A stretch of DNA of 64,000 nt, taken from the NCBI GenBank assembly GCA_947631855.1, contig CANRMX010000005.1:1-64000 (forward strand). Direction: 5' to 3'. Below the pieces are notes generated by a model, which was given only the letters and a program-made list of their open reading frames with translations, did no database searches and was not told the DNA's origin. The translations under genes were made by a program, and so were the position numbers. The DNA is from an uncultured Clostridia bacterium (GTDB taxonomy: Bacteria; Bacillota; Clostridia; Oscillospirales; Acutalibacteraceae). This document shows positions 35,911 through 40,482 of this stretch, piece after piece (position 1 is the first letter of the stretch; each line of letters begins with the position of its first letter).

Positions 35911-36603
35911 ATGAAAAAGACTTTGAAGCAGATCGTTGCGGCGGCGCTGTGCGCGGTGCTGCTGGCGGCCCTGTGGGGCTGTGAGATTCCCCAGCCGGGC
36001 TTCGCGGATTTTGATGTTTCCGGCTACATCCAGGCCCTGCTGGACAGCAGCTATCTGGACGTCCATGGGCCCTTTATGAACATCTCCGGGGCCAATCAGG
36101 AGGATGCGGAGGCGAATCACGATGCCACGGCGGAAAACGCCGCGGTGCGCTTCTGCAATCACTATCAGGTGGCGCCGGACGACGCCCAGATGGATCAGCT
36201 GGAGGAGATCATGGGCCGGGCGTACACCCAGGCCCGCTACACCGTGCTGGACGAGGTGCGCACCGGCAGCGGCTACGACGTGACGGTGCAGATCACGTCC
36301 ATCCTCAATTTCGCGGACTGCGGGAAGGACATCGAGCAGATGCGGGAGAACGCCCAGGCCGAGGCTTCCGGGCAGTTCACCAGCGGCGAGAGCACGGAGA
36401 AGACCGCATCGGACCTGAACGTGAACAGCATCTTTGCCGACAAGGTGATCGCCTTCTGCGACCTGCAAATGAACAACGTGCAGTACAGCCCGGAGCAGCG
36501 CACGGTGACGCTGAAAATCCTCCAGACGGACAACGGCGAGCTGCAGCTGGACATCAACCAGATCGACACCATCGACCAGACGGTGCTGCCGCTGGACGAG
36601 TAA
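35911..36603 (+). CDS. Lipoprotein, function unknown
   Basis: This is a 230-aa protein with a KKTLKQ start, hydrophobic segment and lipobox LLAALWGC, so lipid-anchored outside. The mature part has an acidic low-order stretch (NQEDAEANHDATAENAAVRFCNHY) and two beta-strand-rich segments (YDVTVQITSILNF and YSPEQRTVTLKILQ). It has no named domain that I can support. It follows secA by 23 nt with a GGGAAAAGCC ribosome site. Confidence 0.78.
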   Translation: MKKTLKQIVAAALCAVLLAALWGCEIPQPGFADFDVSGYIQALLDSSYLDVHGPFMNISGANQEDAEANHDATAENAAVRFCNHYQVAPDDAQMDQLEEIMGRAYTQARYTVLDEVRTGSGYDVTVQITSILNFADCGKDIEQMRENAQAEASGQFTSGESTEKTASDLNVNSIFADKVIAFCDLQMNNVQYSPEQRTVTLKILQTDNGELQLDINQIDTIDQTVLPLDE

Positions 36604-36677: not shown

Positions 36678-37346
36678 ATGAACGAACAGCTGACGGTGGC
36701 GGCCCTTTTTGATCTCACCCACACCCAGGCGGCCGACTTTTTGGGGCGATTCTGCTACCCTTGGCAGGCGCTGAACGACCTGGGCGCGTTTATCGTGACT
36801 TTGGGTGAGAGCCTGCCCGCCGGGGACTATGAGCAGGTGGACGAGCAGGTGTGGGTCCACCGCACCGCGAAGATCTACCCCAACAACTATATCGCCGGCC
36901 CCTGCATCATCGGCCCGGAGACCGAGGTGCGGCCCGGGGCGTTCATCCGGGGCAAGGCGCTGGTGGGGGCCGGCTGCGTGGTGGGCAATTCCACGGAGCT
37001 GAAAAACATGCTCCTGTTCGATTCCGTGCAGGTGCCCCACTACAACTATGTGGGCGATTCCATCCTGGGCTTCAAGGCCCACATGGGCGCGGGGGCGGTG
37101 ACCTCCAACGTGAAGCAGGACAAATCGCCCGTCACGGTGCGGGTGGGCGATGAGCGCATCGAAACGGGCCTGAAAAAGTTTGGGGCCATGCTGGGCGACC
37201 ACGTAGAGGTGGGCTGCAACAGCGTGCTCAATCCCGGCACGGTGGCGGGCAGAAACGCCCGCATCTATCCGTTGTCCATGGTGCGGGGCTTTGTCCCGGC
37301 GGGGCACGTGTTCAAGGCCGCCGGGAACGTGGTGCCCCTGCGGTAG
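36678..37346 (+). CDS. Left-handed beta-helix acyltransferase-like protein
   Basis: This is a 222-aa protein. Hexapeptide repeats build a left-handed beta helix from about residue 60 to 205 (IAGPCIIGPETEVRPGAFIRG, VGAGCVVGNSTEL, AHMGAGAVTSNVK, VEVGCNSVLNPGTVAG). The order resembles the C-terminal acetyltransferase half of GlmU, including the catalytic-type GNSTELKN and the loop ahead of the GA-V-TSN segment; it lacks the nucleotidyltransferase half. The cytoplasmic product may be an acetyl or nucleotide-sugar acyltransferase; this is inference from fold. AGAAAGGAAG precedes the start, 74 nt after the lipoprotein. Confidence 0.82.
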   Translation: MNEQLTVAALFDLTHTQAADFLGRFCYPWQALNDLGAFIVTLGESLPAGDYEQVDEQVWVHRTAKIYPNNYIAGPCIIGPETEVRPGAFIRGKALVGAGCVVGNSTELKNMLLFDSVQVPHYNYVGDSILGFKAHMGAGAVTSNVKQDKSPVTVRVGDERIETGLKKFGAMLGDHVEVGCNSVLNPGTVAGRNARIYPLSMVRGFVPAGHVFKAAGNVVPLR

Positions 37347-37387: not shown

Positions 37388-39130
37388 GTGGAGGCGGTCA
37401 AAGAAGCGTTTGCATATTTCCTGCACTCGGGCCTGCTGCCCGGCGTGCTGTTGATCCTGCGGGCCGTCACGCCGGTAGCGGCTCTCTATGTGGTGTGGCG
37501 GTGCTACACGTCGTTTAAGAAGGGACAGCGCCGGCGGGACCCGCTGATCGTCCTGTGGGACGAGGGCTCGGGGGCCCGCTTCCCGGTGCTGTATTGGGAA
37601 AATTCCATCGGCCGCAGCCGCAGCTGCGACATCGTTCTGCCCGATCCCCAGGTCTCCCGCGACCACGCGGTGCTGATGCGCCGGGCGGAGGGCTGGTTCA
37701 TCTGCGACACCGGCTCCAAGGCCGGGGTGTGGGTCAACGGGGAAAAGGTGGAGGGCCGGGCGCTGGTGGGCGCCGGGGACCGCATCACCCTGGGCGGCGT
37801 TACCCTTTCCCTGTGGAATTCCGATGCTGCGCCGCCCAAGCGCCGCCGGGTGTTCACGGGCTTCTCCCGGGAGGCCGCCTCACCGCGCAAGCTGCTGCTG
37901 GCGGTCACGCTGGTGCAGTTTTTGATGGCCATCCAGGCCAGCCTGAACGGCGGGCACTTTGCCCCTGCCCAGTGGCTCCCCTTCGGGGTGCTGCTGGTGC
38001 TGGAATGGGGCTTCTTTGCGGTGTCGGTGGGCGTGCTGCGCCATGTGAGCTTTGAGCTGGAGACCGTCGGCTTCCTCCTCTCCGGCATGGGGATCCAGCT
38101 GCTGGCGGCCACCGACCTGGCCACCGTCACCACCCAGCTGGCGGCGCTGGTGCTGGGGGTGTGCGTTTTCGCGTTCCTGCTCTGGTTTATGAGCGATTTA
38201 GACCGGGTGGCCAAATGCCGCCTCTGGATCGGCGCGGGGGCGCTGCTGCTGTTCGCGCTGAATCTGGTGATCGGCGACGAGCGCTACGGCTCCAAAAACT
38301 GGATCAGCCTGGGGCCGGTGAGCTTCCAGCCCTCGGAGTTCATCAAGCTGGCCTTCATCTTCGTGGGCACCTCCACCCTGGACCGTTTGCAGACCCGGAA
38401 GAACATCACGGAGTTTTTGATCTTCACCGGGGCCTGCATGGGCTTTTTGGCGCTCCTGCGGGATTTCGGCACGGCGCTGATCTTTTTCGCCTGCTTCCTG
38501 GTGATCGCCTTCATGCGCTCTGGCAGCGTGCGCACCATCGCCCTGGTGCTGATGGCCGCGGCGCTGGGGGTGGTGCTGGTGCTGCGGTTCATGCCCTATG
38601 TGGCGGAGCGCTTTTTGGGCTGGGGCCACGCCTGGCAGCACATCAACGACAGCATGGGCTTCCAGCAGACCCGGGTGCTCACCTACATGGCCAGCGGCGG
38701 CCTTTTGGGCATGGGCCTGGGCAACAGCAGTTTGATCTATATCTTCGCTGCGGACAGCGACCTGGTGTTCGGGCTGCTGTGCGAGGAGCAGGGCCTTTTC
38801 ATGGGGCTGGTGGTGCTGCTGGCCATGGGGCTGTTCATCCTCTACGCCCGCAGCGACGTGGCCCGCAGCCGCTCCACGTTTTTCTCCATCGCCTCCTGCG
38901 CGGCGGCGGGGATGCTCCTGTTCCAGACCTGCCTCAACGTCTTCGGCTCCACCGATCTCCTGCCCCTCACCGGCGTGACGTTCCCGTTCTTCAGCGCCGG
39001 AGGCTCCAGCCTGGTCTCCTGCTGGGGACTGCTGGCATTCATCAAGGTATCGGACGAGCGCACCTATGCGGCGCGCCGGGCAGGCCGCCGGAGGTCAAAA
39101 ATCCCTGAAATGGAGGATATCCGCTCATGA
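37388..39130 (+). CDS. FHA domain fused to a SEDS (FtsW/RodA) glycosyltransferase
   Basis: This is a 580-aa protein with GTG start (37388) after GGGAGGCGGTACG. A single span at residues 17-38 is followed by a cytoplasmic FHA domain (about 63-144) that keeps the phosphothreonine-binding residues Arg76 (IGRSRSC), Ser90 and His93 (VSRDHAVL) and Asn117 (VWVNGEK). From about residue 168 a polytopic SEDS domain holds GSKNWISLGPVSFQPSEFIKLA and LLRDFGTALIF (the conserved Asp). SEDS proteins polymerise peptidoglycan from lipid II with a partner PBP, here the next gene by 4-nt overlap. In Actinobacteria separate FHA proteins work next to RodA and PbpA under Ser/Thr kinases; here the FHA part is covalently attached. 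Confidence 0.94.
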   Translation: MEAVKEAFAYFLHSGLLPGVLLILRAVTPVAALYVVWRCYTSFKKGQRRRDPLIVLWDEGSGARFPVLYWENSIGRSRSCDIVLPDPQVSRDHAVLMRRAEGWFICDTGSKAGVWVNGEKVEGRALVGAGDRITLGGVTLSLWNSDAAPPKRRRVFTGFSREAASPRKLLLAVTLVQFLMAIQASLNGGHFAPAQWLPFGVLLVLEWGFFAVSVGVLRHVSFELETVGFLLSGMGIQLLAATDLATVTTQLAALVLGVCVFAFLLWFMSDLDRVAKCRLWIGAGALLLFALNLVIGDERYGSKNWISLGPVSFQPSEFIKLAFIFVGTSTLDRLQTRKNITEFLIFTGACMGFLALLRDFGTALIFFACFLVIAFMRSGSVRTIALVLMAAALGVVLVLRFMPYVAERFLGWGHAWQHINDSMGFQQTRVLTYMASGGLLGMGLGNSSLIYIFAADSDLVFGLLCEEQGLFMGLVVLLAMGLFILYARSDVARSRSTFFSIASCAAAGMLLFQTCLNVFGSTDLLPLTGVTFPFFSAGGSSLVSCWGLLAFIKVSDERTYAARRAGRRRSKIPEMEDIRS

Positions 39131-40482
39131 AGACCGTAGGCTTTCGCTCCATTGTGCTGTATATTTTGCTGGCCGCCTTTTTGCTGGGCGCGGGGTACCT
39201 TGCGGTGGAGCTGGCGATCCACGGCGGCGATTGGGCCATGCAGCCCTATAACGGCCACCTGTACGACACGGCGGAGCTGGGCAAGATCACCGACCGCAAC
39301 GGCCATGTGCTGGCCTATACCGATGACGACGGCGACCGCCTCTACGGGGAGAGCGAGGCCATCCGCCGGGCGCTGTTGCACACGGTGGGCGACACCCGGG
39401 GGTACATCAGCACCGGGGTGCAGCACAGCCTGAGCGACCGGCTCACCGGGTACAACTTCATCACAGGACTGAGCGACCTGCCCTTTGGGGGCATCGACCG
39501 GGACGTGGCGCTCACGGTGGATCAGGATGCCTGCGCCGCGGCCTACGGGGCGCTGGAGGGCAGGAACGGCGCGGCGCTGGTGTACAATTACAAGACCGGC
39601 GAGGTGCTGGTGAAGGTGAGCGCCCCGGGCTTCGATCCGGAAAACGAGCCGGAAGATCTGAACGACGATCCCGCCTATAACGGCGTCTATCTGGACAACA
39701 CCCTGTCCGCCTCCTTCACGCCGGGCAGCATTTTCAAGCTGGTCACTCTGACGGCGGCCATGGAGAAGTGGCCGGATTCCTGGAGCCAGCGGGCCTATGC
39801 CTGCGAGGGCAGCATGGAGATCGGCGGCAGCGAAATAACCTGCTTCGACCACACCGCCCACGGCACCCAGACGGCGGCGGAGGCGCTGGGGAATTCCTGC
39901 AACGTGTATTTCGCCCAATTGGCCAACGATATCGGCGGGGAGGCGCTGCAGGCCAAGGCGGAGGCCATGGGGTTCAACCGTTCCTTTTCGTTTGATTCCA
40001 TCCCCACCGCCGAGAGCGAGATCAAACTTTCCGGCGCGGACGCCAACCAGCTGGGCTGGGCGGGCGTGGGGCAGCACACGGTGCTGGTGAATCCCGGCCA
40101 TATGCTGCTGCTGATGGGCAGCATCGCCAACGGTGGCGAAGCGGTGCCGCCCAGGCTCACCAAAAGCGCGGGGCTGCTTCCGGGCCTTTCCGGGGGGGAG
40201 AAGCTGGTGACGGCGGCGGAGGCCGTCCAGCTGAAAGCCCTGATGCGCAGCAACGTGGAAAATTATTACGGGGACTGGAACTTCCCGGCGGGGCTCGATG
40301 TCTGCGCCAAGACGGGCACCGGCGAGGTGGGCGAGGAAAAGGGCCCCAACTGCTGGATGGTGGGCTTCTGCGACAACGCCCAATACCCCTACGCCTTTGC
40401 CGTGGTGGTGGAGGACGGCCCCGGCGGTATGGCCGCCGCCGGCCCGGTGGTGTCCGCCGCCCTTTCCGCGCTGGTAGATTGA
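39127..40482 (+). CDS. Class B penicillin-binding protein, PbpA type
   Basis: This is a 451-aa transpeptidase anchored by one N-terminal span (about residues 9-28). Catalytic motifs are Ser201-x-x-Lys204 (TPGSIFKLVT), Ser257-x-Asn259 (GNSCNVYF) and Lys395-Thr-Gly (CAKTGTGEVG). The N-terminal dimerisation part is short, so the protein is smaller than FtsI/PBP2 (often above 600 aa) and closer to PbpA of Actinobacteria. It crosslinks peptidoglycan outside the membrane and pairs with the SEDS protein just upstream (ATGA overlap). Confidence 0.95.
   Translation: MKTVGFRSIVLYILLAAFLLGAGYLAVELAIHGGDWAMQPYNGHLYDTAELGKITDRNGHVLAYTDDDGDRLYGESEAIRRALLHTVGDTRGYISTGVQHSLSDRLTGYNFITGLSDLPFGGIDRDVALTVDQDACAAAYGALEGRNGAALVYNYKTGEVLVKVSAPGFDPENEPEDLNDDPAYNGVYLDNTLSASFTPGSIFKLVTLTAAMEKWPDSWSQRAYACEGSMEIGGSEITCFDHTAHGTQTAAEALGNSCNVYFAQLANDIGGEALQAKAEAMGFNRSFSFDSIPTAESEIKLSGADANQLGWAGVGQHTVLVNPGHMLLLMGSIANGGEAVPPRLTKSAGLLPGLSGGEKLVTAAEAVQLKALMRSNVENYYGDWNFPAGLDVCAKTGTGEVGEEKGPNCWMVGFCDNAQYPYAFAVVVEDGPGGMAAAGPVVSAALSALVD

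Follow-up and report, generated by a model that had tools for sequence, protein, structure and literature searches.

Does a peptidoglycan polymerase that carries its own FHA domain respond directly to a phosphorylated protein? The question is raised by the window, a stretch of 64,000 nucleotides from a gut bacterium, an uncultured member of the Clostridia of the family Acutalibacteraceae, for which the original prediction had claimed a 580-aa fusion of an FHA domain to an FtsW/RodA core with a membrane anchor. The fusion is real. Its open reading frame (37388..39130, + strand) has a GTG start codon with AGGGAGG 5' of it, and its layout was established by Pfam, homologue alignment, AlphaFold and Foldseek. 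Pfam located FHA (PF00498) at residues 73-136 (E 4.6e-19, 69.1 bits, cut-off 20.7) and FTSW_RODA_SPOVE (PF01098) at residues 244-552 (E 1.5e-51, 175.9 bits, cut-off 26.4). The AlphaFold model, built on a 57-sequence alignment and with a pLDDT of 79.5, presents a transmembrane helix at residues 16-46 (37433..37525, +), an FHA sandwich at 54-144 and SEDS helices at 166-569. Taken together with the alignments and Foldseek, the FHA domain extends over residues of about 53-145 (37544..37822, +), and the SEDS polymerase core over about 166-570 (37883..39097, +) with the catalytic Asp458 encoded at 38759-38761. The basic stretch KKGQRRR follows the first helix, thus the positive-inside rule would place the FHA domain in the cytoplasm, between this helix and the SEDS core. 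Of 110 loci examined, 108 encode the fusion in a single open reading frame, and the search in other Clostridia that the prediction had advised showed it in many of them, across the Oscillospirales. Its recurrence in about a hundred further loci rules out a chance reading frame, a frameshift or an assembly artefact.

The next gene (39127..40482, + strand) codes for a class B PBP of 451 aa with a transpeptidase domain (PF00905, E 2.8e-34, 119.1 bits). The predicted start of this gene inside the SEDS stop codon was confirmed as an ATGA overlap at 39127-39130, with the ATG placed in the SEDS TGA and a GGAGG upstream of the start codon. In most of 89 loci the SEDS stop and the PBP start overlap or are few bases apart. 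The motifs S201xxK204, S257xN259 and K395TG397 are kept in 97-103 of 103 aligned rows, some of which are partial sequences, and the closest solved structures include PbpA of M. tuberculosis. A different joining was observed in locus L190 (6026-8701, - strand; identical to L185), an 892-aa protein that unites SEDS with a class B PBP, the latter containing a PbpA dimerisation domain, in one chain and is located between an upstream FHA gene and a downstream PASTA kinase gene; further matches in the phylum have open frames of 760-920 aa and are possibly of the same SEDS-PBP fusion type. Upstream of the FHA-SEDS gene lies a GlmU-C-like hexapeptide acyltransferase without the nucleotidyltransferase domain (36678..37346, +). 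Relatives of it occur in 27 fused loci, and many of these have the gene immediately before the fusion; in the closest relatives it is often located just 5' of the fusion gene. The acyltransferase is a possible member of the operon, outside the core module. The genome, which is 81% complete, showed no match to GlmU that exceeds the curated cut-off. The flanking genes are common only to the closest kin, among them a 230-aa lipoprotein-like reading frame (35911-36603) that has no Pfam or NCBIfam match and lies beside the fusion in the closest relatives only.

The mycobacterial locus for this group of proteins has the order fhaA-fhaB-pstP-rodA-pbpA-pknA-pknB (PMC6554272, PMC11898655), and a pknB-fhaA cluster occurs in a subset of Firmicutes (PMC6554272). 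Among deeper Bacillota, three loci (L187, L214 and L215) have the order FhaA-FhaB-PP2C-SEDS-PBP-PASTA kinase, L182/L186 the order FHA-PP2C-SEDS-PBP-kinase, L188 the order FHA-FHA-SEDS-PBP-kinase and L190 the order FHA-[SEDS-PBP]-kinase. In L189, FhaA, an FHA-SEDS fusion, PBP and PASTA kinase follow each other in a row; Pfam detected FhaA_N in L187 and L189 and PASTA domains in L189. These clusters match the mycobacterial gene order, hence the fusion is read as the joined form of a known module. Common with the FhaB(FipA)-RodA-PbpA-PstP-PknA/B locus of Mycobacterium and other Actinobacteria is the unit of a TM-anchored FHA protein, a SEDS protein and a short class B PBP, and the deeper Bacillota share the gene order together with PP2C and PASTA kinase. 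In contrast to the actinobacterial locus, the fusion joins FHA and SEDS in one chain, its FHA domain has lost an Asn, its locus lacks FhaA and the phosphatase, and kinase and phosphatase are encoded elsewhere.

We give a little better than an even chance to the reading that the fusion is a joined version of the FhaB-RodA-PbpA-PknB module for wall synthesis, its polymerase being recruited or gated directly by a phosphothreonine that the kinase has made. On this reading, the SEDS domain would pair with the overlapping PBP as peptidoglycan polymerase and transpeptidase, apart from the FtsW and RodA of the genome. The PASTA kinase would create a phosphothreonine on itself or on a substrate, the FHA domain would bind it, and the bound domain would recruit or gate the synthase in cis, replacing a separate FhaB adaptor; control of the polymerase would thus be free of an adaptor. 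In mycobacteria, FhaA binds CwlM and MviN phosphorylated by PknB, and the reader is a separate protein (PMC6180346).

The SEDS core is complete and includes the catalytic Asp. Asp458, conserved in 108/108 fused homologues, aligns with D255 of the T. thermophilus RodA, and the chain of the D255A mutant (6bas) has Ala at this position. Foldseek matched the core of the model to the P. aeruginosa FtsW and the T. thermophilus RodA. Judged from their conserved residues, SEDS part and partner PBP look active. With FtsW, RodA and SpoVE the fusion shares the FTSW_RODA_SPOVE domain, the catalytic Asp, the PBP partner and the fold, but it has an additional transmembrane helix and the FHA domain, stands in its own clade and remains below all equivalog cut-offs: 139.8 bits for RodA (TIGR02210, cut-off 336.7) and 184.5 bits for FtsW (TIGR02614, cut-off 337.5). 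The FhaB/FipA equivalog (NF049868) reached 51.9 bits over residues 47-142 and its cut-off is 125, thus the likeness is in the layout of transmembrane helix and following FHA only. That the NCBIfam models for FhaB, RodA and FtsW all stayed below cut-off counts against the fused module. In a tree of Bacillota sequences, one clade holds the cluster SEDS and is split from canonical FtsW/RodA by a branch with a support of 97/90. Two sequences entered as paralogues (L196 and L206) fell inside this clade, and their neighbourhoods turned out to be full clusters; a clade consisting solely of the rows initially labelled as triads was rejected by the AU test, as these two paralogue entries lie in such clusters. 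The genome has three SEDS proteins in total, the fusion, a dcw-type FtsW/SpoVE and a RodA-like protein, and a third copy of its RodA or FtsW is ruled out as identity of the fusion by the separate clade.

For the FHA domain, intact phosphothreonine-binding residues had been proposed, and this holds for a part of the binding site. Among the fused homologues G75, R76, D81, S90 and H93 are invariant (108/108) and R91 is found in 107/108; the GR and SxxH motifs are therefore kept, and a lack of conservation among orthologues, which would have spoken against the proposal, was not observed outright. Lost is the Asn of the canonical SxNG motif, replaced by Ala112 in front of Gly113, so that the Asn-Gly block is missing (GSKAGV in the alignment to GSLNGT of GarA). 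The five most conserved residues of FHA domains are Gly, Arg, Ser, His and Asn, and mutation of the Arg or the Ser lowers binding (PMC4238996). Throughout the Oscillospirales the position is occupied by Gly, Ser, Ala or Thr, mostly one of the first three. The Asn was kept in 3/124 fused Oscillospirales and in 1/25 first FHA domains of split relatives, but in 26/26 sequences of deeper Bacillota (5 fused, 21 separate). The loss is therefore specific for the lineage and common to both forms, and it counts against the fused-module reading. The replacement is mostly preceded by Lys (SK[G/S/A]G), and Arg91 is near-invariant in fused Oscillospirales (118/124) as against 10/21 deep relatives. Foldseek yielded EmbR, GarA and FhaA as best PDB matches of the FHA part (rmsd 1.1 for EmbR 2fez). 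These stand-alone phosphothreonine readers, including OdhI beside GarA, have in common with the fusion the FHA fold and the GR and SxxH motifs, many matches having an rmsd of about 1.1-1.8 Å across some 90 columns; the FHA domain of the fusion differs by the missing SxNG Asn and by its attachment to a membrane polymerase.

The loss of the Asn throughout the lineage and a match of the fusion protein to PF16697 (Yop-YscD_cpl) would also fit a domain that serves structure or dimerisation independently of phosphorylation, as the cytoplasmic domain of T3SS YscD does. This explanation appears the least probable of those considered, since the conservation of G75, R76, S90 and H93 in all 108 sequences and the near-invariant R91 reflect a strong selection on the phosphate-binding face. 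Binding of phosphate or a phosphopeptide is probably kept with an altered peptide recognition. A more special form of this reading, possible but rather doubtful, is a re-tuned reader in which the exchange of the Asn for a small residue, the preceding Lys and the fixed Arg91 would have changed the ligand preference and the polymerase would be switched in cis; if true, a phospho-switch built into a SEDS enzyme would be seen here for the first time. We infer rather than observe that this FHA domain binds phosphopeptides, what its ligand is and which sign the effect has.

The search for a PASTA kinase, suggested together with the prediction, was successful: the genome encodes one (NCBIfam NF033483, 558, cut-off 450) with a PP2C gene beside it. 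Kinase and phosphatase are adjacent at G000:C2, next to rsgA/rlmN-like genes and away from the fusion. At the fusion locus itself, FHA, SEDS and PBP are fused or neighbouring genes, and the PASTA kinase and PP2C are lacking. Kinase-domain matches were obtained in all 67 genomes of the panel with this SEDS, contrary to the concern that fusion genomes might be devoid of a Ser/Thr kinase, and in 31 of the 33 genomes without it, the two exceptions being incomplete genomes; these counts refer to the kinase domain, and PASTA domains were checked in the own genome and a few others. A co-loss of the kinase was uninformative as a test, as the kinase is near-universal in the panel. The remote location and the equal presence of the kinase without this SEDS count against the fused module, and the kinase must have other jobs. 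The genome also encodes IreB/ReoM and a DivIVA-family protein, thus other routes from the kinase to the wall may coexist with the fusion. In Listeria, PrkA controls wall synthesis through the phospho-target ReoM (PMC7286690); this protein resembles the fusion as an output of a PASTA kinase onto peptidoglycan synthesis, but is a separate small protein and no part of a polymerase.

The kinase itself may be the ligand. Its activation loop, SETQTMTDKAIG, contains Thr residues, a mycobacterial FHA protein binds the activation-loop sites of a kinase (PMC4238996), and the FHA-SEDS gene adjoins the PASTA kinase gene in L189. Bound to the phosphorylated loop, the FHA domain would bring the kinase to the SEDS-PBP complex, and the regulated step would be the phosphorylation of the synthase or of its neighbours instead of a direct gating through the FHA domain. 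We regard such docking as unlikely. Of similarly low probability is a role in placement only, where the FHA domain would hold the synthase at a cell site by binding a phosphorylated scaffold there and leave the catalytic rate unchanged. The DivIVA-family protein would be a candidate scaffold, and a mycobacterial FHA protein binds phosphorylated DivIVA (PMC4238996); however, no sequence feature ties the FHA domain of the fusion to DivIVA, and a domain joined to the enzyme itself fits gating equally well.

The distribution links the FHA domain to this SEDS protein. Among 100 genomes of the family, with classes tallied from the listed rows, about 40 had the fusion, 27 a separate SEDS of the same kind and 33 none. 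Near relatives have FHA, SEDS and PBP as separate adjacent genes: most of the 27 split genomes carry a TM-FHA or TM-FHA-FHA gene just upstream of the SEDS gene, and four had no adjacent FHA within the stretch examined. An FHA domain of any kind was detected in 65/67 genomes with this SEDS and in 6/33 without it (Fisher p 2e-16, kinship ignored). In 29 of the 40 fused genomes no other recognisable FHA accompanies the one on the SEDS protein, and the own genome of 1.84 Mb also has a single FHA domain. The second FHA of the TM-FHA-FHA protein in split relatives (L120, L121, L126, L129 and others) is absent from the fused form. One genome with this SEDS and PBP (G063, locus L131) had no FHA domain detected anywhere and is a natural case in which to look at a function that does without FHA. 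A role specific for sporulation was considered and dropped, as most genomes have Spo0A whether or not they carry this SEDS, and a clear link was missing. On a larger tree the fused state required six changes, four of them forced by well-supported branches. A single origin is thus rejected, as no fewer than 4 to 6 gains or losses are required on this tree and the f38 fusion is located in the deep clade; fusion or fission likely happened repeatedly.

Little is known of how Ser/Thr kinases influence the final stage of wall synthesis. A literature search for FHA together with SEDS, RodA or FtsW, with subscription papers outside its scope, brought up no account of the fusion; the architecture may be listed in domain databases. 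The relatives show the fusion as the joined form of a known cluster for phospho-signalling and wall synthesis, so that the polymerase of the fused gene is probably under the direct control of a Ser/Thr kinase. That FHA and SEDS occur fused in nature speaks for an action of FhaB-type proteins on the SEDS enzyme itself, and with a single fusion protein the phospho-control of the polymerase can be tested with purified parts.
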